The position numbers and the translations under genes were made by a program. Under the pieces are notes generated by a model. The model was not told where the DNA came from, did not search any database, and was given only the letters and a program-made list of their open reading frames with translations. Of a stretch of DNA of 55,481 nt, positions 37,474-49,958 are shown one piece after another; within the stretch, counting starts at the first letter, position 1; each line of letters starts with the position of its first letter. The stretch spans positions 1 to 55,481 of the forward strand of contig JAFRHT010000133.1 in NCBI GenBank assembly GCA_017433125.1. The letters are read 5' to 3'. The DNA comes from Solobacterium sp. (GTDB lineage: Bacteria > Bacillota_I > Bacilli_A > Erysipelotrichales > Erysipelotrichaceae).

Positions 37474-38226
37474 TTATTTGCTGCTTTGAGCAGCCGGTTT
37501 CCTGCCGTTTTCCCGGCAAAGCACCACCAGATGGGTATCCTCATCCCAGCGGCGGCAGGTTTCCAGGGTCAGAAGCCGGTCTTCTGCCTTGATTGTCTCC
37601 CCGCTGCCGGCAGCCCGGTGGGACGTGGCATATGCCAGCCACCGCCGTTTCCGCTCCCCTGACAATTCCGGATCATCATAGCCGAATTCCTCCAGTTCAC
37701 GGGCTGTTACATAAACTGCCGCGCAGACATCATACGTACGTTCTTCCGTTTCAAACAGCAGCCGCAGCCTGCCGTTTTCCTGCAGGCCGGCAGCGGTGGT
37801 CAGCACTGCCAGCGGGGAGAACCTGGCTTTGCTGTCATAGTATACGGTATGCCCGTAGAGAACCTGGTTCGGACTGTCCGGACCGGTGCTGCAGTGACGG
37901 AACACCGTGCCCTGGGATCCGGGGCTGCCGTCAAAATTACGGCTCAGATACTCTTCATTGTCTTTTCCCTGCACGACCGGCAGGGAGATCAGCCCGGAAT
38001 CAAAATCCAGCCAGGCGATGAAATCGCTGTTTTCCGCATGGAGCAGTTGCCACATTTCAGCGGTACAGTCTGTTCCTTCTTCAGTTTCCTTCCGGATTGT
38101 TCTGCGGATTTCCTCTTCCTCCGGACTTGCCGGGGTTTCCAGCACCGGCCGCATAAGAATGGCACAGGTACACAGAACCCCGGCAGCGAAAACAATCAGG
38201 GCATCATAAAGAATGCTTTCCCGCAT
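37474..38226 (-). CDS. Class B-like sortase
   Basis: 250 residues. A membrane anchor near the N-terminus (about 8-28), then an extracytoplasmic sortase fold. Seen: WQLLHAENSDFIAWLDF, PVVQGKDNEEYLSRNFDG, GTVFR, catalytic His126 in LYGHTVYYD and Cys224 in LTLETC. Class B sortases normally carry Arg just before a VV pair after the Cys; here that place reads THLVVL, so His232 seems to replace it (by-eye alignment). Sortases link surface proteins to the wall or each other. It starts 23 bases inside the preceding secreted-protein gene, last in the DUF5688-adhesin-partner-sortase operon. A longer reading from 38505 is Arg-rich and only an overlap of that gene. Confidence 0.82.
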   Translation of the reverse strand: MRESILYDALIVFAAGVLCTCAILMRPVLETPASPEEEEIRRTIRKETEEGTDCTAEMWQLLHAENSDFIAWLDFDSGLISLPVVQGKDNEEYLSRNFDGSPGSQGTVFRHCSTGPDSPNQVLYGHTVYYDSKARFSPLAVLTTAAGLQENGRLRLLFETEERTYDVCAAVYVTARELEEFGYDDPELSGERKRRWLAYATSHRAAGSGETIKAEDRLLTLETCRRWDEDTHLVVLCRENGRKPAAQSSK

Positions 38227-38815
38227 GTTTCCGGTACTGTTTCCACAGCAGCGGCAGGACCAGAATGCCGGCCGCCGCAGCCGGGAGATGCGGCGTCTCA
38301 GCGGGTTTTTCCGGCGCCGCCGGATCCGGTGTTTCCGGGGCAGTGATATCCGGCACTGCTGTTTCGTCCGTCTCCGGCTTTGATGTCTTCTGGTCCGGCA
38401 TCTTTTCCGGCTGCCTGCTGACATAGGTGACGGTGATTTCCGCCTTCTGCGCCTGCCCCGGATCCGCGTAGAGATCCGCTTCGGGAACCAGCTCGATATC
38501 GGCACTGAAGCCCGCCTCCACCGGGGTCATCACGGCGTCCCAGCCGCATTCACCGTTATTGCCGATGTGATACTCTGCCGGGCCGTTAGCCGGTTTGATC
38601 CAGACTTCACTGCCATGTGTGTACTGTTCCAAATCGTGATTGCGCCGCGGACATTCCGGAAACACATAGTGAATTGTCCGGATCCAGTCCTGTTCCTCCC
38701 CATAGGTTACGGTTTCGCCGTTCTCATCCACATAGGTCAGGGGATCCTGGGCATGCACCGGGACAAAACCCGCAAGGATTGTCAGCGCCGCCACTGCCGG
38801 CAGAGTTTTTTTCAT
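38204..38815 (-). CDS. Secreted partner protein of the sortase operon
   Basis: 203 residues from MKKTLPAVAAL, with a signal peptide cleaved near HAQDP. The mature part has a small folded region (about 25-130: TYVDENGETVTYGEEQDW, IHYVFPECP, GNNGECGWDAVMTPVEAGFSADIELVP), a Pro/Glu/Thr linker, then a hydrophobic helix (PAAAAGILVLPLLW) and a basic tail. This is the layout of a sortase substrate or membrane-anchored protein, but no LPXTG, NPQTN or similar motif precedes the helix (TPHLPAA). Start at 38815 overlaps the adhesin stop by ATGA, so translation is coupled. Unknown family. Confidence 0.75.
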   Translation of the reverse strand: MKKTLPAVAALTILAGFVPVHAQDPLTYVDENGETVTYGEEQDWIRTIHYVFPECPRRNHDLEQYTHGSEVWIKPANGPAEYHIGNNGECGWDAVMTPVEAGFSADIELVPEADLYADPGQAQKAEITVTYVSRQPEKMPDQKTSKPETDETAVPDITAPETPDPAAPEKPAETPHLPAAAAGILVLPLLWKQYRKHAGKHSL

Positions 38816-41800
38816 GATTTCACCTTCGTTCCTGTCAGTTTCATGCGTTTCCGCAGCAGGATCACCAGCATGATTCCGGCTGCCATTCCGCATATACCGG
38901 CCAGCAGGATTCCCTGCCCGGTTCCGGTATGAATCCAGCGTACCCGCCGGCGGACATTCCGCGGACTCCGGCTGATCAGGACGGACTGCTCCGCGCTGCT
39001 GATATCTGCATGAGTGCAGACAACCTGTCCGTCCGCGAGCAGTGTCTCAAATGCCACAACGGTATATCCGTTCAGTCCTTCCGCATTAAACCGGAATGAC
39101 ACTTCGGTTGCCCCGTCCGGTTTATCCGGGATAAATGTCCGTGATGCGCTTACCGCAGTACCATTGATCAGGAGTTCTCCCATATCATGGCCGTCCGGAT
39201 GTTTCTGATGCAGGACGCCGCGCACTTCATATGTCTGCCCGGGTTTCAGGTCTTTGAAGCGGATGATGTCATTGATCACCACATCCTTATCCGGGCCGAC
39301 ATTGTCATATCCGTCCGCGGCAGCGTAAGCCGTCGTGCTGATTCCAGGTCCCGGTGTTTCTGCCGGCCCCGGCACCGTAACGGTTACGGTCTGTGAGGCA
39401 TCACTGATATCACAATGGGAGGCGACCAGTTCACTGCCGGCATAGAGTTCCTCAAAGACAACCAGTTCCGTATCTGCCGCCAGCAAATCGGTATTCACAG
39501 TGAATCCCAAAGTGACAACCCCGGTTCTTTCTGCCGGCATGAATTCTGTTTCCGCCTGTACGGCAATGCCGTCCTGCGTGAATATGCCGCCGTCCCCGGC
39601 TGCATTTCTGACATGGAGTTCCCCTTTGAGCCGGTATGTGCTGCCCGGGCTCAGATCGGTATACCGGACCTCATCAAAGACGGTTATGATACCGCCGCGG
39701 ACGATAGTCTTCTCACGGGCGGCGCCAATCCCGGCCAGGGTGCGGATCTCCGGTCTGACGGCAACCGTCACCGTCTGGCCGGCATCACTGATATCCGCAT
39801 GTGCGGCAATCTGCTGTCCGTCCGCCAGCAGTTCCTCAAATACAACAAGCTCTTTTCCAAGCAGCCCGGATGCGTCAATTTCAAACACCGCTTCCGCTGT
39901 CCCGGAAGAATGCTGCGGCATCAGTTCTGCAACGACTTCATACGGCTGACCACCCGCTGCGGTCAACGGGCCGAGATCTTCGCCGTTTTCTCCCCTGACA
40001 TGCAGGCTGCCCTTAAGAACATACGTTTTCCCGGGTTCCAGGCCATCATATTTCACCTGGTCTGTAATCCGGGCACCGCCCTCAGGATAGAGTGTATGAT
40101 CCCCATCAGCGGAATCACTGGCGGTTGTACGCAGGAACGGTTCACGGAATTCCACGGTCTGGCGTATGTCATTCAGATCCTGATGCGCCGCCACTTCCCG
40201 GCCGTTCAGTGTACAGCTTTCAAATGCGACGACAACCGGATGCTCTGCCAGCACTTCCCGGTCCAGCGTGAACACCACATGAACCGTTCCGTCATAAACC
40301 GCCGGGATAAACTCCGCGGATACCGGCTCGCACCCGGGCAGAGGTGTTCCTTCCGCCTTGTCCATCAGGGTCCCGGTCATGACATAGGTACGTCCCGGCA
40401 GAAGCCCGCTGTAGCTCACGGTATCCGTCAGGATCACCTTTCCGTCATTTGGCCCGGCCGGGGTTGTGTCTTTGAGAGTGGTATGAATCCCCATTACACG
40501 GATGGTCTGGCTGCTGTCATCAAGATCCATGTGCCGGGAAACACGTTCACCTTCCGCATTGAACAGTTCCTCGAAAAAGACCACATCACGCCCGGCCAGA
40601 CCTGCTCCGTCAAAGACCATTTCCACTTCCAGCGTGCCGGACAGTTTTTTCAGTTCAACCTCGGTTTCCCGGACCAGTTCCCGGCCCTGGTCATCTGTGA
40701 CGGTTTCACCGCTGTCCGCATAGACCAGGGTTGTTTTCAACCGGTATGTACCGTAATCGGAAACACCGTGGTAGCGGACCTGATCAATCAGTTTCATCTG
40801 CGGACCGGCCGCGGCTGTCTGTTCCTGGCTGAGGCCGTCCCGGGCCACGGTGGACAGGGTAATGCCATAGTCCGTAATCGTGCCGAGATCCACAGCGGCA
40901 GCGTTCCTGACAATACTGAACTTGAACTGCTGCAGTTCCAGACCCTCATTCAGGTCTGTGCGGACTTCATGGAGAATGTACTGCCCGTAAGGCAGACTGC
41001 CGAGGCTGTCATCCACGGCCGCCATTCCTCCGTCCTCCGCCAGGCCAAACCACAGACCGCATTCCTCGTGAATGGATTTGTCCCTGAGCCCGGCAGTCAG
41101 ATCAATCTTTGTTTCATAACTGTCAAGATCTTTCAGCAGACCGTCATTCGCATTGACCTTCCCGGAATGCGGCATTTCATCGGAACGATATACCCCGTTG
41201 ATGTCCGTGAGCAGCACATGCCGTTCCCCGGTATTCGCGTTTTCCAGTACCCACAGGGTCTGGATCCGGTCAGTCGTGTAACCCATGGTTTTGACAAAGG
41301 AGAACTCACCGCGCTTGATCTGATCACGGAAGCGCATCGGTGTGCCGGGCTGCTGTTCATGATGCGTCAGTGTATCCGCTTCGACAATTTCGCCTTCCCG
41401 GTCAATTTCAAAGGTCCGCGGGGTGCCGTCGGTCAGCAGGTAGGCATTGTTCGTCTTTGTTTCCTGAATGGTATAGGTGCCGTAAGGCAGTGCTTTTCCT
41501 TCCGTCTCAGCCACGTACTTTCCCAGCGTTTTGTCATAATGTGTCGTAATGGCACAGACGAATTCGCCCGGCTGGTATTCCGTGAGACTGCCGGCGTCTG
41601 CCAGGATGGAAAGAGCTGAAGTATTCGTGATGCTGAACACAATATCATTGAGATGACCGGCCCGCAGCGCCTGGTGTTTCTTTCCGCCGATCGCCTGGGA
41701 GGGATTGGCAATGTCCAGCACAGCCAGTTCACGGTCTTCCTTGACAATTCTCACATCACCGCGGATGACCTGTTCAGCCAGCTGCCGGTTCTCTGTGTCC

Positions 41801-44800
41801 TCTCCGGCTGGCTGCGGGTCCGTCAGATCCAGTGTCATGTTATCCTCACGGACCGAGAAGACTGCCTGCCAATGCGTATTGAGCAGATATCCCTGTGAAG
41901 GCTTTGTCTCAACCGCCACGTATGTTCCGTACGGCAGGCAGCGGCTTTCCGTATGTGCCTGCCCGGTTTCATCCGTTGTCAGTGTCATTACTTTTTCCAT
42001 ACCGGCATATGAACGCGGGTCCGGTTCTCCATGGAGCAGGTCCACATGCGGTCCGCCCTCCGGTGCCGCCTGTCCCGGATTGATCCAGGCACCTGCGGCC
42101 AGCACATCGTTTTCGGAGATATTGTTGATGGAAATCTCAGCCCCGGCCAGCGACGCGTCGCCCTGGGCCTGCGGCAGCTGTCTTTCCGCATCTGTTTTCC
42201 GGAAACGGACACCGCCCCGGATCACTTCGTCCCGCATCTGTCCGGAGGGATCGGCATTGTCCCGGCCGGCGTCATACATATGTCCGTCTTCCCGGATTTT
42301 GATGACCGCCTGCCAGGCATTATTGTCCAGATAACCTTCGGGTGCTTTTGTCTCTTTGACCAGGTAGGTTCCGTACGGCAGTGCCTCCCGGCCCGTCTCA
42401 GCATGGCCGTTTTCGTCGGCTGTCAGCTTCAGGACAATGTTTTCCTCCTCTGCCGCTTCACCGGCGGGTATCCACTGACCCTCATAGTAAATATCATTGT
42501 TAGAAATGTTCCATACCGTAAACTCCGCCCCTCCCAGGGTACCGTCACCCTGGGGCCGGCCGGCAGGTTCCTTTCCGTCCCGGAAACGATCAGCATCCAG
42601 TTTGTTAACCTCAATGCCGCCCCGGAAAACCGTTTCCGGAACATCCTTCACTTTGCAGACAAGGCCGTCTGCACGGATGTCAAACGTTTCTTTCCAGTCC
42701 TGATTCAGGCGGTAGCCGGCCGGCGCTGAGACTTCATGGAGTTCATAATCACCCCACTTCAGCATGCTGCTTTCCGCGTGTCCGGTTTCATCAGTGGTTA
42801 TTTCCTCAACTGTACGGCCGTTGCGGCGGTTTACCACTGCGAAGACCGCCCCGCTGAGACCTGCATCCCCCTGGCCCGGGGCAGCCCCGCGCTCCTGATC
42901 GATTTTCTGCAGTTCCGCCTGCCCGTGCACACCCAGTCTGATTTCAATTTCCGTTTCGGCATATGTTTCACCCGGCGTCACATCTACCCGGCCGCAGAAC
43001 AGAAGCGTCTGGGAACCGGGTGAATGCGCGATGCCGCCGCTGCAGTTGGAATGCGGGGCTGTATTCGCTTTTGTGCTTTTCAGCCGGATCCTGATCTTCT
43101 CCGGCATTTCCGCTGCCTGCTCACTGACCGTTACCTGCAGGGTATTGCCGGAAAGTGAAACAGACACATCTTCCTGGTGAAGATCATCACCGCCGGACAA
43201 TTCCACACCGGCCACCTGATACTGATACTCACTCAATCTGCCGCCGGCGTCCGTAAACATCAGGAGTTCACCTGGAAGATAGACGGATGGCCCGGTCATC
43301 TGCGGCCTGTAGGATACCGCGCCGCCGGCCAGCCCGGCTGCCCAGTCATATGCCCGGTTCAGGGTTTCCTCTCGGTTGACACCCCACACTGCCAGCTGGG
43401 CGTCCACAAACGCGCCGCCGCCATAGGCATATGCCGCCAGCAGCGCATCCTCCGGATTGACATCCCACGAGTCTATGACATACGATGCCCCGTCAAGTAT
43501 CGGTACGTTTTCCTCGTAACAGAGGAAACTCGCATTGGCCGCATGAAAAAATGTGATGTAGTGTCCGTTATACATGCCGGAACGCTCTTTTGTCACAACA
43601 CAGCCCGGGGCCGTATAACAGTCATCATTGACATACAGACGGAGCGGATCGGCCGGATCAGCCACCGGCAGATGCGGTACATATTCCCCTTCTTCCTGAT
43701 CATGTGTGCTGAACAGTTCAGGATTGTCCGTCATGTTTCCGGCCGCCGCAAAACCGGACAGTTTCGCCGCCGCTTCTGAGGTGGACGAGGCACTGACGTA
43801 ATAATCCACACAAGGCCCGTAATTGGATGTTTCCGTCCTGGCCCCGGCAGTCAGCACCCCGGGCACATTGGCCGGGAAGAACCCGCCGGCATCCGCTGCC
43901 GCATTACCCGCTGCCGCCACCACGATAATGCCCTGTGCCACCGCTTCCTGCAGCAGTTCCTTCAGGGCAGCCGTGTTTTCCGAATCCGGTACGGAAGCCG
44001 AGATATTAATAATACCGGCATGGGCTTCCATGGCATATTTCACGGCTGCGTAGACATTGGCCAGGGATGCGGTGCCGTCATCGTTGAATGCCTTGATGGA
44101 CAGAATCGATGCCCGGTTCCCGGAAGCGGCAAGGATGATTTCCGCCATCCTGGTGCCATGCCCATGCTCATCTCTGTCCGGATCATCCGTCAGATTGACT
44201 GAGACCGCCGCCAGGTCATTGACACCGGTATCAATCAGCGCCACCAGACGGCTGCCGTCTGACGCATGCATGGCCAGCCCGTCCTGTGCATCCTGCAGAA
44301 CCCCGTCTGCCGGTGTGAATGATTCTTCCTCACACACTTGCATACGGATATCGCGAACCGCCGCGCTGCCGGCTTCTTCGGCTGCGGCCAGTGTTTCTTC
44401 CACCGCTTCCGGCCGCCTCAGGCAGACGATAACCGCATCATCATAAACGACTGCCTGCCCTTCCACATTGAGGCCGTCCGGCACTTCTTCTGTTCCGTAA
44501 ATAACAACCCTGGTATCACTGCTGTCAGCCAGTGCTGCTACCGCCGCGGCCATTTCCGCAGCCGTATCAGCCCGATACAGGACAAGGCCCTGTTCCGGTT
44601 CAGCAGCCGGTTCCGCTTCCTGTTCCTCCGCCGGATCCGGTCCGGATATTTCTTCCGGCGCAATGGCGGCCACTGCATCAGCTGTTTCTTCCGGGAACGG
44701 CACGATATCGTCTGCCGCCGTCACTTCATGTTCACTGATGGCAATTTCCGGCGGGTCTTCTGCCGGATTGGCAGCGGTTTCTTCTTCCGCTGCGGTTTCC

Positions 44801-44901
44801 GTCACTTCCTCTTCTTCGGCATTTGCCGGCAGGTTCATGCCTGTACAAAGCAGAAATCCGGCCAGCAGGACCGCCATGATTTTCTTCGTTTTATTCCTCA
44901 T
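38812..44901 (-). CDS. Giant surface protein: subtilase - thioester domain - CnaB repeats - VaFE repeats
   Basis: 2029 residues from 44901 (AAGGGG about 10 bases upstream). Signal peptide 1-28, acidic Ala/Glu linker to about 105. A compact S8 subtilase (about 215-388) has D224 in LIDTG, H248 in EHGHGTRMAE, oxyanion N333 in AAAGN and S375 in STSEAAAKLSG. Residues about 429-560 look like a thioester adhesion domain: Cys461 in FLCYEENVP and Gln502 in DAQLAVW. Then CnaB/SpaA-like repeats (about 655-1340) with LPYGTYLVKETKAPEGYL-type ends. Five VaFE ester-bond domains follow (about 1345-1470, 1471-1586, 1588-1715, 1717-1842, 1852-1977), each ending like FEELLADG...HADISDAGQTV. The tail has RRRVRWIHTGTGQG, one helix and a basic end, without LPXTG. 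Coupled to both neighbours by ATGA overlaps. Predicted to be a covalent host- or surface-binding fibre with its own protease. Confidence 0.85.
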   Translation of the reverse strand: MRNKTKKIMAVLLAGFLLCTGMNLPANAEEEEVTETAAEEETAANPAEDPPEIAISEHEVTAADDIVPFPEETADAVAAIAPEEISGPDPAEEQEAEPAAEPEQGLVLYRADTAAEMAAAVAALADSSDTRVVIYGTEEVPDGLNVEGQAVVYDDAVIVCLRRPEAVEETLAAAEEAGSAAVRDIRMQVCEEESFTPADGVLQDAQDGLAMHASDGSRLVALIDTGVNDLAAVSVNLTDDPDRDEHGHGTRMAEIILAASGNRASILSIKAFNDDGTASLANVYAAVKYAMEAHAGIINISASVPDSENTAALKELLQEAVAQGIIVVAAAGNAAADAGGFFPANVPGVLTAGARTETSNYGPCVDYYVSASSTSEAAAKLSGFAAAGNMTDNPELFSTHDQEEGEYVPHLPVADPADPLRLYVNDDCYTAPGCVVTKERSGMYNGHYITFFHAANASFLCYEENVPILDGASYVIDSWDVNPEDALLAAYAYGGGAFVDAQLAVWGVNREETLNRAYDWAAGLAGGAVSYRPQMTGPSVYLPGELLMFTDAGGRLSEYQYQVAGVELSGGDDLHQEDVSVSLSGNTLQVTVSEQAAEMPEKIRIRLKSTKANTAPHSNCSGGIAHSPGSQTLLFCGRVDVTPGETYAETEIEIRLGVHGQAELQKIDQERGAAPGQGDAGLSGAVFAVVNRRNGRTVEEITTDETGHAESSMLKWGDYELHEVSAPAGYRLNQDWKETFDIRADGLVCKVKDVPETVFRGGIEVNKLDADRFRDGKEPAGRPQGDGTLGGAEFTVWNISNNDIYYEGQWIPAGEAAEEENIVLKLTADENGHAETGREALPYGTYLVKETKAPEGYLDNNAWQAVIKIREDGHMYDAGRDNADPSGQMRDEVIRGGVRFRKTDAERQLPQAQGDASLAGAEISINNISENDVLAAGAWINPGQAAPEGGPHVDLLHGEPDPRSYAGMEKVMTLTTDETGQAHTESRCLPYGTYVAVETKPSQGYLLNTHWQAVFSVREDNMTLDLTDPQPAGEDTENRQLAEQVIRGDVRIVKEDRELAVLDIANPSQAIGGKKHQALRAGHLNDIVFSITNTSALSILADAGSLTEYQPGEFVCAITTHYDKTLGKYVAETEGKALPYGTYTIQETKTNNAYLLTDGTPRTFEIDREGEIVEADTLTHHEQQPGTPMRFRDQIKRGEFSFVKTMGYTTDRIQTLWVLENANTGERHVLLTDINGVYRSDEMPHSGKVNANDGLLKDLDSYETKIDLTAGLRDKSIHEECGLWFGLAEDGGMAAVDDSLGSLPYGQYILHEVRTDLNEGLELQQFKFSIVRNAAAVDLGTITDYGITLSTVARDGLSQEQTAAAGPQMKLIDQVRYHGVSDYGTYRLKTTLVYADSGETVTDDQGRELVRETEVELKKLSGTLEVEMVFDGAGLAGRDVVFFEELFNAEGERVSRHMDLDDSSQTIRVMGIHTTLKDTTPAGPNDGKVILTDTVSYSGLLPGRTYVMTGTLMDKAEGTPLPGCEPVSAEFIPAVYDGTVHVVFTLDREVLAEHPVVVAFESCTLNGREVAAHQDLNDIRQTVEFREPFLRTTASDSADGDHTLYPEGGARITDQVKYDGLEPGKTYVLKGSLHVRGENGEDLGPLTAAGGQPYEVVAELMPQHSSGTAEAVFEIDASGLLGKELVVFEELLADGQQIAAHADISDAGQTVTVAVRPEIRTLAGIGAAREKTIVRGGIITVFDEVRYTDLSPGSTYRLKGELHVRNAAGDGGIFTQDGIAVQAETEFMPAERTGVVTLGFTVNTDLLAADTELVVFEELYAGSELVASHCDISDASQTVTVTVPGPAETPGPGISTTAYAAADGYDNVGPDKDVVINDIIRFKDLKPGQTYEVRGVLHQKHPDGHDMGELLINGTAVSASRTFIPDKPDGATEVSFRFNAEGLNGYTVVAFETLLADGQVVCTHADISSAEQSVLISRSPRNVRRRVRWIHTGTGQGILLAGICGMAAGIMLVILLRKRMKLTGTKVKS

Positions 44902-45839
44902 ACTTTCAGTTCCCCTTCCCTGTTTTCCATACCGCACCGCCGGCGGTAATCATCTGCCGTCTCGAAGATCTCCGCTGCGCAGTCATAGTGATACAGATGA
45001 TCCGAGAGTTTTTCCTGCGGACTGACAGCCACGGCGTTAACCCGTCTGACCAGGCCGGTGAGTCCTTCGTAATCGGCATATCCTTCCGGCAGGGCCAGCA
45101 CTTCATGAATACTGGATGGAATCACGTAATAATCTCCAAGCGTACGGCCCAGTGTATCAAGAACTCCCGGATAGAACAGCACGGCTGCGCCGTTGATCAT
45201 CTGCCGGTTGGTGACCGTCATCAGCTCCGTTTTCCCGTTTCCGCTTTCTGACAGGTTCCAGCGCTGCATGAAGCAGTCGGTTCTTTCAATCAGCGCCGGC
45301 ATCCGGGACACACTGTTCTCCAAGGCCATATCGATCAGTTCATCTGCCTTTATCCCATACATCCCAAGCAGGCTGTTATTCACCATGGTGCTGCACAGTA
45401 CTTCATTCCGGCCGGACATGCTGATCTCCACATGTGCGGTCAAAGCCAGATCTGTGATCCGGCGGTGCGGTACCTTCTGCAGCAGGTCATGGTTGATAAC
45501 GGCATTGCTCAGTCTGACAAACAGATGCGGCCGGACTTCCGCCAGATTCTCCACCCAGCCGATATCCTCCTGTGCCGGCACCTTCGCAGCCGTTTCAGCC
45601 GCTTCCCGCAGAATCGCTTCCACCGCTTTACCATTGCGGTAATCCCCATACAGATCATCCAGATTAATGGTGACTGCAGCTTTCTGCCCGGGCAGGCGTA
45701 CGGCGAGTCCTTTGTAAGTACTGCCCAGTTTGGCCACCGGTCCGGCAGTTACTTCAGCCCCGGCATAATCCGGGCCCATCGCCGCCGGCATATTCTCACG
45801 CAGATATCTGACAAATTCGCTGTAGGTAAGTCTTCCCAT
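44898..45839 (-). CDS. DUF5688 family protein
   Basis: 313 residues. N-terminal pattern LTYSEFVRYLRENM, GSTYKGLAVRLPGQKAAVTINLDDLYGDYRNGKAVEAIL is that of DUF5688, a cytoplasmic family from Bacillota with no known function. No signal peptide or membrane segment. Start at 45839 (GAAAGAAATAG upstream) rather than 48 codons earlier, where the extra sequence would contain a terminator hairpin. Its stop overlaps the adhesin start by ATGA. A cytoplasmic protein leading a surface-protein operon is odd and may point to a role in expression or folding of that operon. Confidence 0.8.
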   Translation of the reverse strand: MGRLTYSEFVRYLRENMPAAMGPDYAGAEVTAGPVAKLGSTYKGLAVRLPGQKAAVTINLDDLYGDYRNGKAVEAILREAAETAAKVPAQEDIGWVENLAEVRPHLFVRLSNAVINHDLLQKVPHRRITDLALTAHVEISMSGRNEVLCSTMVNNSLLGMYGIKADELIDMALENSVSRMPALIERTDCFMQRWNLSESGNGKTELMTVTNRQMINGAAVLFYPGVLDTLGRTLGDYYVIPSSIHEVLALPEGYADYEGLTGLVRRVNAVAVSPQEKLSDHLYHYDCAAEIFETADDYRRRCGMENREGELKV

Positions 45840-45922
45840 GTCTATTTCTTTCGGGTTCCGTTCCCGAAATCCCCTTTCATAAGTACTATTCGCAGGTGAC
45901 CGCGCGATTCCCCGCCGAAAAT

Positions 45923-45949
45923 AAAAAAACGCAGATTTTCTCTCTGCGG
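45923..45949 (-). terminator. Leader terminator upstream of the DUF5688 operon
   Basis: Minus strand CGCAGA-gagaaaa-TCTGCG then seven T. No minus-strand gene lies upstream that it could end, so it sits in the 5' leader of the surface operon. A second GCAGATCC copy just before it could pair alternatively and act as anti-terminator. Confidence 0.6.
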
Positions 45950-46029
45950 CCGGATCTGCATCGGCAATAAAAAGACGTTTCACCGGCTGATCAGTGTTAT
46001 AGTTGAAACAGATGAAAGGGGTATTTTGA

Positions 46030-48725: not shown

Positions 48726-49958
48726 TCACTTCTGTTTTTTCTTGTATCGCTTCGCCCAGTAGCTGCGCTTGACGTGATTTACCGCCAGTTTTTCAAACCG
48801 GAAACGCTTCATTTCCCGTTCCCGGCGGACATAGTCAAACTCCCCGATCTGCTCGATGAATTCCGGTCCGAAAGACCGTTTATAGGCGTAAAGACCATAA
48901 TACGGGTCTTCCTTTGAGGCTGTCCCGCTGAAGCCGCACATGTCATAATGCCGCACCCCATGGGCCTTCATGTCCGCCATGGCAAACGCATGCAGACTGT
49001 CCACCGGTTTGATGAAGTTGAATTCCTTGTGATTGTATGTATAGAGATCCCAGGAAAAATCCCCGCAGCGGATAAACAGTCCGCAGGCTACCGGCACGGT
49101 ACTCCCGTATGCCTGTTTCAGCTCTTCTGCCCTGGCCAGTTCCTTTTCCTTGGTATCCCGGGCCTCCGGATCCTTCCGGTATTTCTTTCCGGCCAGTTCT
49201 TCGCTGATCCCGCTGATCATGTCATCCAGCCGGATCTCCGTCACATACATGACCGCATGCCTGCCAAAGCAGTCCAGCAGCCCCTGGAAGAACTGCCGGG
49301 AATGCGGGGCGAAACCGTCCTGCTCGGTCAGCTGCTTTTCCAGGGCCATCAGTGTGCCGATATCACGCTCGTCCCCCAGCCTGGTGGACACCCCGGTCAC
49401 TGCATGCCGGTTCAATGCTGTCCGGCGGGCTTTGGCATACCGGGAATAAATGGTGTCCAGATCTGCTGACAGGTCCGCGATCAGTGTATACCGGTTGGTC
49501 CACGAACCGTTATAGGCATAGCCGTATCCCTTATGTGTATAACCGAGTTCCTTCAGGGTTTCGGTGATCACTTCATTGCTGAAGCCGTCATCCACCGGCT
49601 CTCCGGTGATTGTCCGGTGGCAGCGGACCACATTCGGATCCACGCGCAGGAAAGCAACCTTCTTTTCATCCGCATGTTTCTGCAGCAGCCGGTATGCCTT
49701 CCGGACCTGCTCCGTATCCCCGTAATCCATGCATACACCCCACGGAACATAGAGATATTTATGGCCCAGCCAGCTGTTCTGCAGCACCATTGCGGTTCCG
49801 ACCAGCCGGTCCCCCTCATAAAAACCGAAAAACGCATGCCGGTCATGATCCGTTTTTTCCTTGAAACGGGCCCACATGCCTGTTTTCATATAATGCACGT
49901 TCGGGCTGCTCATGACAAAGTCATTCAGCTCTTTTTCTTCAATGCGGCGCAGTTCCAT
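48726..49958 (-). CDS. FemX/MurM-type peptidoglycan interpeptide-bridge ligase
   Basis: 410 residues of the FemABX family, which uses aminoacyl-tRNA to add bridge residues to lipid II on the cytoplasmic side. Seen: two GNAT-like halves, FARMWARF-like GMWARFKE near 27, WLGHKYLYVPWGVCMDYGD, FLRVDPNV, the RYTLIADLSADLDTIYSRYAKARRTALNRHA helical-arm region, and YDMCGFSG...EDPYYGLYAYKRSFGPEFIEQIGEFDYV near the C-terminus. A charged stretch around residues 240-275 (KKYRKDPEARDTKEKE) is the coiled-coil arm. The added residue cannot be read from sequence. Confidence 0.93.
   Translation of the reverse strand: MELRRIEEKELNDFVMSSPNVHYMKTGMWARFKEKTDHDRHAFFGFYEGDRLVGTAMVLQNSWLGHKYLYVPWGVCMDYGDTEQVRKAYRLLQKHADEKKVAFLRVDPNVVRCHRTITGEPVDDGFSNEVITETLKELGYTHKGYGYAYNGSWTNRYTLIADLSADLDTIYSRYAKARRTALNRHAVTGVSTRLGDERDIGTLMALEKQLTEQDGFAPHSRQFFQGLLDCFGRHAVMYVTEIRLDDMISGISEELAGKKYRKDPEARDTKEKELARAEELKQAYGSTVPVACGLFIRCGDFSWDLYTYNHKEFNFIKPVDSLHAFAMADMKAHGVRHYDMCGFSGTASKEDPYYGLYAYKRSFGPEFIEQIGEFDYVRREREMKRFRFEKLAVNHVKRSYWAKRYKKKQK

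Follow-up and report, generated by a model that had tools for sequence, protein, structure and literature searches.

A probable thioester adhesin from a Solobacterium-type bacterium with a putative zymogen-type subtilisin encoded ahead of its thioester domain

Thioester adhesins are covalent grips and cell-envelope subtilases are cutting tools, and a gene from a Solobacterium-type member of the Erysipelotrichaceae raises the question of what the two could be doing in a single exported chain. The window (the whole stretch of 55,481 nucleotides that was analyzed) carries this gene on the minus strand, from an ATG at 44901 to 38812, and it encodes 2029 amino acids. An earlier note on this DNA had described the open reading frame and named residues D224, H248, N333, S375, C461 and Q502, all of which were found at those positions. 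The source genome groups with ruminant-gut members of this lineage, its nearest relatives being MAGs of sheep, cattle and further ruminant origin, and profile searches detected no S8 protein and no VaFE protein in it besides the fibre. From the N-terminus, the chain starts with a signal peptide, an acidic linker, an I9-like propeptide and a compact S8 domain; behind these lie a thioester domain (TED), a stalk of about five CnaB-like and five VaFE domains, and a sorting-type tail. These features and the neighboring genes are located as follows.

44898-45983, minus: DUF5688 gene, upstream of the fibre gene (PF18941, E 1.2e-60)
44818-44901, minus: signal peptide, residues 1-28, judged by eye from the sequence
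44590-44817, minus: acidic Glu/Ala/Pro-rich linker, residues 29-104 (22/77 Glu), poorly conserved among homologues
44326-44589, minus: I9-like propeptide domain, residues 105-192 (pLDDT ~80-90; aligns with pro-subtilisin propeptides)
43702-44259, minus: compact subtilisin-like S8 catalytic domain, residues 215-400 (Pfam PF00082, fold match, invariant residues)
44230-44232, 44158-44160, 43903-43905 and 43777-43779, minus: codons of D224, H248, N333 and S375, respectively
42937-43632, minus: class II-type thioester domain, residues ~424-655 (hhalign to a TED profile)
43519-43521, 43396-43398 and 43009-43011, minus: codons of C461, the helix-motif Q502 and the likely bond-forming Q631, respectively
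40867-42936, minus: CnaB/SpaA-type isopeptide stalk of about five domains, residues ~656-1345 (PF17802)
38977-40866, minus: five VaFE domains of the T-Q ester bond type (matched five times by NF033903, 39025-40860)
38812-38934, minus: C-terminal sorting-type tail with IHTGTG (1990-1995), TM helix and basic tail (from the sequence)
38204-38815, minus: small secreted/anchored accessory protein P0003, from an inner ATG at 38815
37474-38229, minus: class B-like sortase, with a probable start inside the listed ORF 37474-38505

The S8 domain was recognized by Pfam (Peptidase_S8, PF00082) at residues 220-385 with E 1.6e-12 and 47.8 bits against a gathering cut-off of 21.8, and its profile matched solved subtilisins at E 1e-30 in a search of solved structures. 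No PA or Fn3 domain was found in the fibre protein by Pfam. A structure model of the N-terminal part, built on an alignment of 27 homologous sequences, had pLDDT values of ~80-95 across most of the propeptide and S8 domain; a single-sequence model was discarded (pLDDT 41). Positions 25-306 of the retained model (residues 129-410) matched unautoprocessed pro-subtilisin E (3whi) with Z 25.1 over 252 residues at 3.2 A, pro-Tk-subtilisin and PCSK9 were also matched with their propeptides included, and subtilisins in general scored Z 22-25 against residues ~129-410. The subtilase fold on which the earlier note had staked its reading at residues 215-388 is thus present in the model, and over a longer span. 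The fold search of the whole model listed subtilases only; it barely probed the TED part, whose absence from that list is uninformative.

The propeptide is of the I9 type in that the fold alignment starts inside the propeptides of the pro-subtilisins; Pfam propeptide models gave no match to the fibre protein. Residues 193-215, between the propeptide and the catalytic domain, form a low-confidence stretch of the model, as would be expected of a processing loop. Further along the chain, the only conserved motif of the linker between S8 and TED, [VIL]F[TSP], was considered as a self-cleavage site and rejected, as it is modelled as a strand and lies inside the segment aligned to the end of the subtilisin fold.

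Asp224, His248, Asn333 and Ser375 are invariant in alignments of 11 and of 28 sequences, the latter being 25-90% identical to the query, and they stand in the proper order, in agreement with the intact compact triad and oxyanion Asn that had been proposed. The motif around the Ser is STSxAAA, not GTSxAxP. Judged by these residues, the protease looks catalytically intact. A distant relative (L056; G080:C8, 31638-48168), a 2421-residue surface-type protein, has an S8-like N-terminal region that has degenerated so far that its triad motifs are unrecognisable.

Three motifs characterize TEDs: the first, [YFL]C-Phi-zeta, contains the bonding Cys; the second, TQxxPhiW, is helical, and known TEDs can do without its Gln; the third, PhiQ-zeta-PhiPhi, lies on a C-terminal strand and supplies the bonding Gln (PMC4450167). 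In the fibre, LCYE (C461) corresponds to the first, AQLAVWGVN (Q502) to the helix motif and SQTLL (Q631) to the third, from which it departs at the first position in having Ser instead of a hydrophobic residue. Since AQLAVWGVN is the TQxxPhiW motif, whose Gln forms no bond, Q502 is unlikely as the bonding residue, and the Cys461/Gln502 pair put forward in the earlier note probably does not hold. The most likely pair is predicted to be Cys461-Gln631 in a class II TED. Gln631 is invariant in all five S8-TED sequences of the genus, one of which is just 43% identical. The Cys-Gln spacing of 170 in the fibre compares with 171 in SaTIE (C296-Q467), 195 in BaTIE (C71-Q266) and 204 in EfmTIE86 (C88-Q292), all class II TEDs (PMC6194298), and a modelled beta-rich stretch at ~545-610, which comes after the helices and before the Gln strand, agrees with the sandwich insert of class II.

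The Pfam models TED and TED_2 gave no match to the fibre protein, and membership in this domain family was therefore examined by profile comparison, using a profile of 26 TED matches from the same taxonomic family and 15 column shuffles as a control. By hhalign, the profile of the fibre TED matched the 26-TED profile with E 6.1e-6 and a probability of 68% over 228 columns, compared to E values of at least 0.017 for all 15 shuffles. In the joint alignment of 31 rows, the Cys461 column held Cys in 30 and the Gln631 column held Gln in most, and the helix Gln column was His or Asn in three. The thioester domain claimed for this region is accordingly present by the profile match and the conserved Cys and C-terminal Gln columns, despite the Pfam miss. 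The TED model showed helices and strands in the expected order, with an upper lobe mostly at pLDDT 30-65 and a low-confidence Gln631 loop; when the TED profile was run against solved structures, no TED was returned.

Behind the TED, both the CnaB repeats and the five VaFE domains that had been proposed were found independently by Pfam and NCBIfam, as was the subtilase domain. PF17802 (SpaA) matched over 4 stretches at E 7e-46, with four domains passing Pfam individually, and the VaFE part matched the Pfam T-Q ester model at E 9e-114 and NCBIfam VaFE (NF033903) at E 3e-130. The H-x7-Q pattern is kept in all five VaFE domains, and the D in four of them. Amongst the profile searches that the earlier note had suggested, those for S8 and VaFE thus gave matches, but Pfam's own TED models gave none.

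The chain ends in IHTGTG, a TM helix and basic residues, without a Pfam Gram_pos_anchor match. A similar HTG-type tail is seen in one homologue (TIHTGDGN in L062), and others have PKTGD or QTGD tails. The adjacent sortase matched TIGR03064 at E 1.4e-22, under the curated cut-off of that model. The ATG of the fibre gene overlaps the DUF5688 stop as ATGA, the accessory start overlaps the fibre stop likewise, and two other loci (L057 and L059) preserve the order of fibre, accessory protein and class B-like sortase. Because of these overlaps and the conserved gene order, the DUF5688, fibre, accessory and sortase genes look like one operon. The ATGA junctions of the DUF5688, fibre and accessory genes (44898-45983; 38204-38893) also suggest translational coupling. 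Elsewhere in the genome there is a second sortase (G000:C109, 8333-8848), nearer to the Pfam sortase model than the fibre-adjacent one, and a FemAB-family gene of the peptidoglycan cross-bridge type (48726-49958) lies <5 kb from the fibre operon. A PADLOC run gave no match.

A query consisting of propeptide, S8 and TED matched 32 of 273 genomes of the family, although matches beyond the first ~15 were mostly ordinary subtilases. Among 316 genomes of the order, five, all from one genus, contained the TED part of the fibre, and a sixth had a remnant of it. TEDs as such occurred in 103 of 268 genomes; TEDs are therefore frequent, and an S8 domain ahead of one is rare. In a genome scan, this compact S8 also turned up in Lachnospiraceae, Eubacterium, Saccharofermentans and one Coriobacteriaceae record, in most cases at the N-terminal end of proteins of 1000-2900 residues, many with sorting-type tails. 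Among its carriers are the cultured Lachnospiraceae AC2029 and YSB2008. Lachnospiraceae matches weaker than ~E 1e-60 were rejected as family members, as they have the ordinary GTS motif where it is readable and represent other subtilases. Two of the proteins (L063 and L067) have S8 followed by a Pfam TED above the cut-off (28.4 and 34.7 bits against 22) and then SpaA, and L063 carries an LPXTG anchor match. In L062, S8 is followed by a near-cut-off TED_2, SpaA and eight T-Q domains, and L071 and L076 retain the Cys motif and a candidate Gln motif. The earlier note was thus right that one chain unites S8, thioester, CnaB and VaFE domains, but the arrangement is not unique, as S8-TED heads recur within the genus and in several Lachnospiraceae, where Pfam's own TED model gives a score.

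The compact S8 also stands ahead of other heads. An NlpC/P60-type domain follows it in L046, L072 and L081, above the cut-off solely in L046. In these three and in L214, an NlpC/P60-like domain, a Cys-based enzyme fold, takes the TED's place, and in L081 this head sits on choline-binding repeats, without a long stalk. In L069, L070 and L077, the head after S8 has a C...YQDF pattern, like a divergent thioester domain without a Pfam TED match. Because the same module precedes these other heads, including the NlpC/P60 head of L081, it seems not to be a helper specific to the TED. On a tree of S8 domains, the TED label requires at least 3 changes and is clustered beyond chance, for which reason either a single ancestral S8-TED head has been exchanged on several occasions or heads have been attached more than once.

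In comparisons with close relatives, S8 and TED had the lowest dN and dN/dS of the fibre (dN/dS 0.06-0.10). The corresponding dN/dS values were 0.16-0.21 for CnaB, 0.18-0.19 for VaFE in full-length comparisons (one L058 VaFE value covers just 71 codons) and 0.19-0.39 for the acidic linker. Of all parts of the fibre, S8 and TED are thus the best conserved, and they are under purifying selection.

Altogether, we give about an even chance to the reading that this is a TIE (thioester, isopeptide, ester) adhesin of the sortase type whose tip bears, ahead of the TED, an active compact subtilisin made as a zymogen. The propeptide would fold the protease and then be cleaved off at the disordered loop 193-215, leaving the mature protease next to a Cys461-Gln631 thioester where a cross-linked stalk of CnaB and VaFE domains ends. 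The thioester would bond covalently to a surface amine, probably of a host or neighboring-cell protein or of mucus, and thereby hold the protease in place while a nearby protein is cut. This reading is based on the invariant S8 residues, the pro-subtilisin fold, the TED profile match, the S8-TED-SpaA order in L063 and L067, the low dN/dS of both domains, the downstream conservation of the accessory protein and the class B-like sortase, and the occurrence of the S8 ahead of non-TED heads. The STSxAAA motif, the low-confidence TED lobe and Gln631 loop, the atypical sorting motif and the sub-cut-off sortase count against it.

Its main rival, which we regard as somewhat doubtful, is that the S8 domain cuts its own linker to the TED after export and leaves, so that the TED then forms the N-terminal tip, just as it does in ordinary TIE proteins. 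Subtilases autoprocess, TEDs are almost always N-terminal in known proteins (PMC4450167), and the region linking S8 and TED is modelled as disordered; this explanation is weakened because the linkers of different clades show no common cut site and the same S8 stands ahead of heads other than TEDs. A protease acting mainly on the producer's own surface, where it would trim the accessory protein, other adhesins or matrix, or destroy antimicrobial peptides or bacteriocins, seems unlikely. The accessory protein and sortase are adjacent and conserved, the related curated profile QhpE describes a maturation protease (E 9e-17, under the cut-off) and the fold resembles that of CylA, which processes a lanthipeptide, but the S8 module has varied neighbors and heads and no constant partner gene in the loci read.

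The compact fold, the changed Ser motif STSxAAA and the loss of the triad in L056 could also point to an inactive structural or binding remnant, which is very improbable given four catalytic residues invariant in 28 sequences and an S8 dN/dS of 0.06-0.10. Slimmer still is the prospect, raised in the earlier note and favored by the adjacency of S8 and TED, that the protease activates the thioester, because isolated TEDs expressed alone, without any protease, form the bond spontaneously (PMC4450167, PMC6194298). A further reading, rather unlikely in our estimation, joins both activities on one ligand: the protease would open or expose the target and the thioester would bond a newly available amine, the same ligand being both processed and gripped.

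Secreted S8 zymogens displayed on sortase-anchored proteins are known from lactic acid bacteria and streptococci (PrtP, ScpA and SpyCEP). In contrast to these, the fibre has a far smaller S8 with no detected PA insert or Fn3-type stalk, carries a CnaB/VaFE stalk and has a TED beside the protease. It shares the propeptide and catalytic fold with pro-subtilisin E and Tk-subtilisin (3whi, 2e1p; Z 24-25) but differs in its compactness, in STSxAAA for GTSxAxP and in being part of a 2029-residue chain. The compact S8 also matched the profile of QhpE-type subtilisin-like proteases (NF049966) at E 9e-17, but with 61 bits against a cut-off of 165 and in a different context. TIE proteins with a class II TED (BaTIE, SaTIE and EfmTIE86; PMC6194298) likewise have the TED followed by CnaB and a C-terminal tail of the sorting type, and SaTIE has ester domains as well behind these. 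Unlike them, the fibre has a propeptide and subtilisin ahead of the TED, which is almost always N-terminal in known proteins, and an atypical IHTGTG tail. Although encoded behind the S8, the TED could become N-terminal after processing. The fibre is a variant of a TIE adhesin, not a new category.

A literature search, whose coverage was incomplete, found no paper on an S8-TED fusion, and a conserved single chain with both a covalent grip and a cutting tool is, as far as we found, undescribed. If protease and thioester did act in turn on one ligand, they would represent a working principle new among bacterial adhesins, present in several gut-bacterial families. Since S8 is repeatedly paired with a TED across two bacterial families and the S8 module caps other heads, these observations suggest that rumen and gut Firmicutes have a modular system of protease-tipped fibres.
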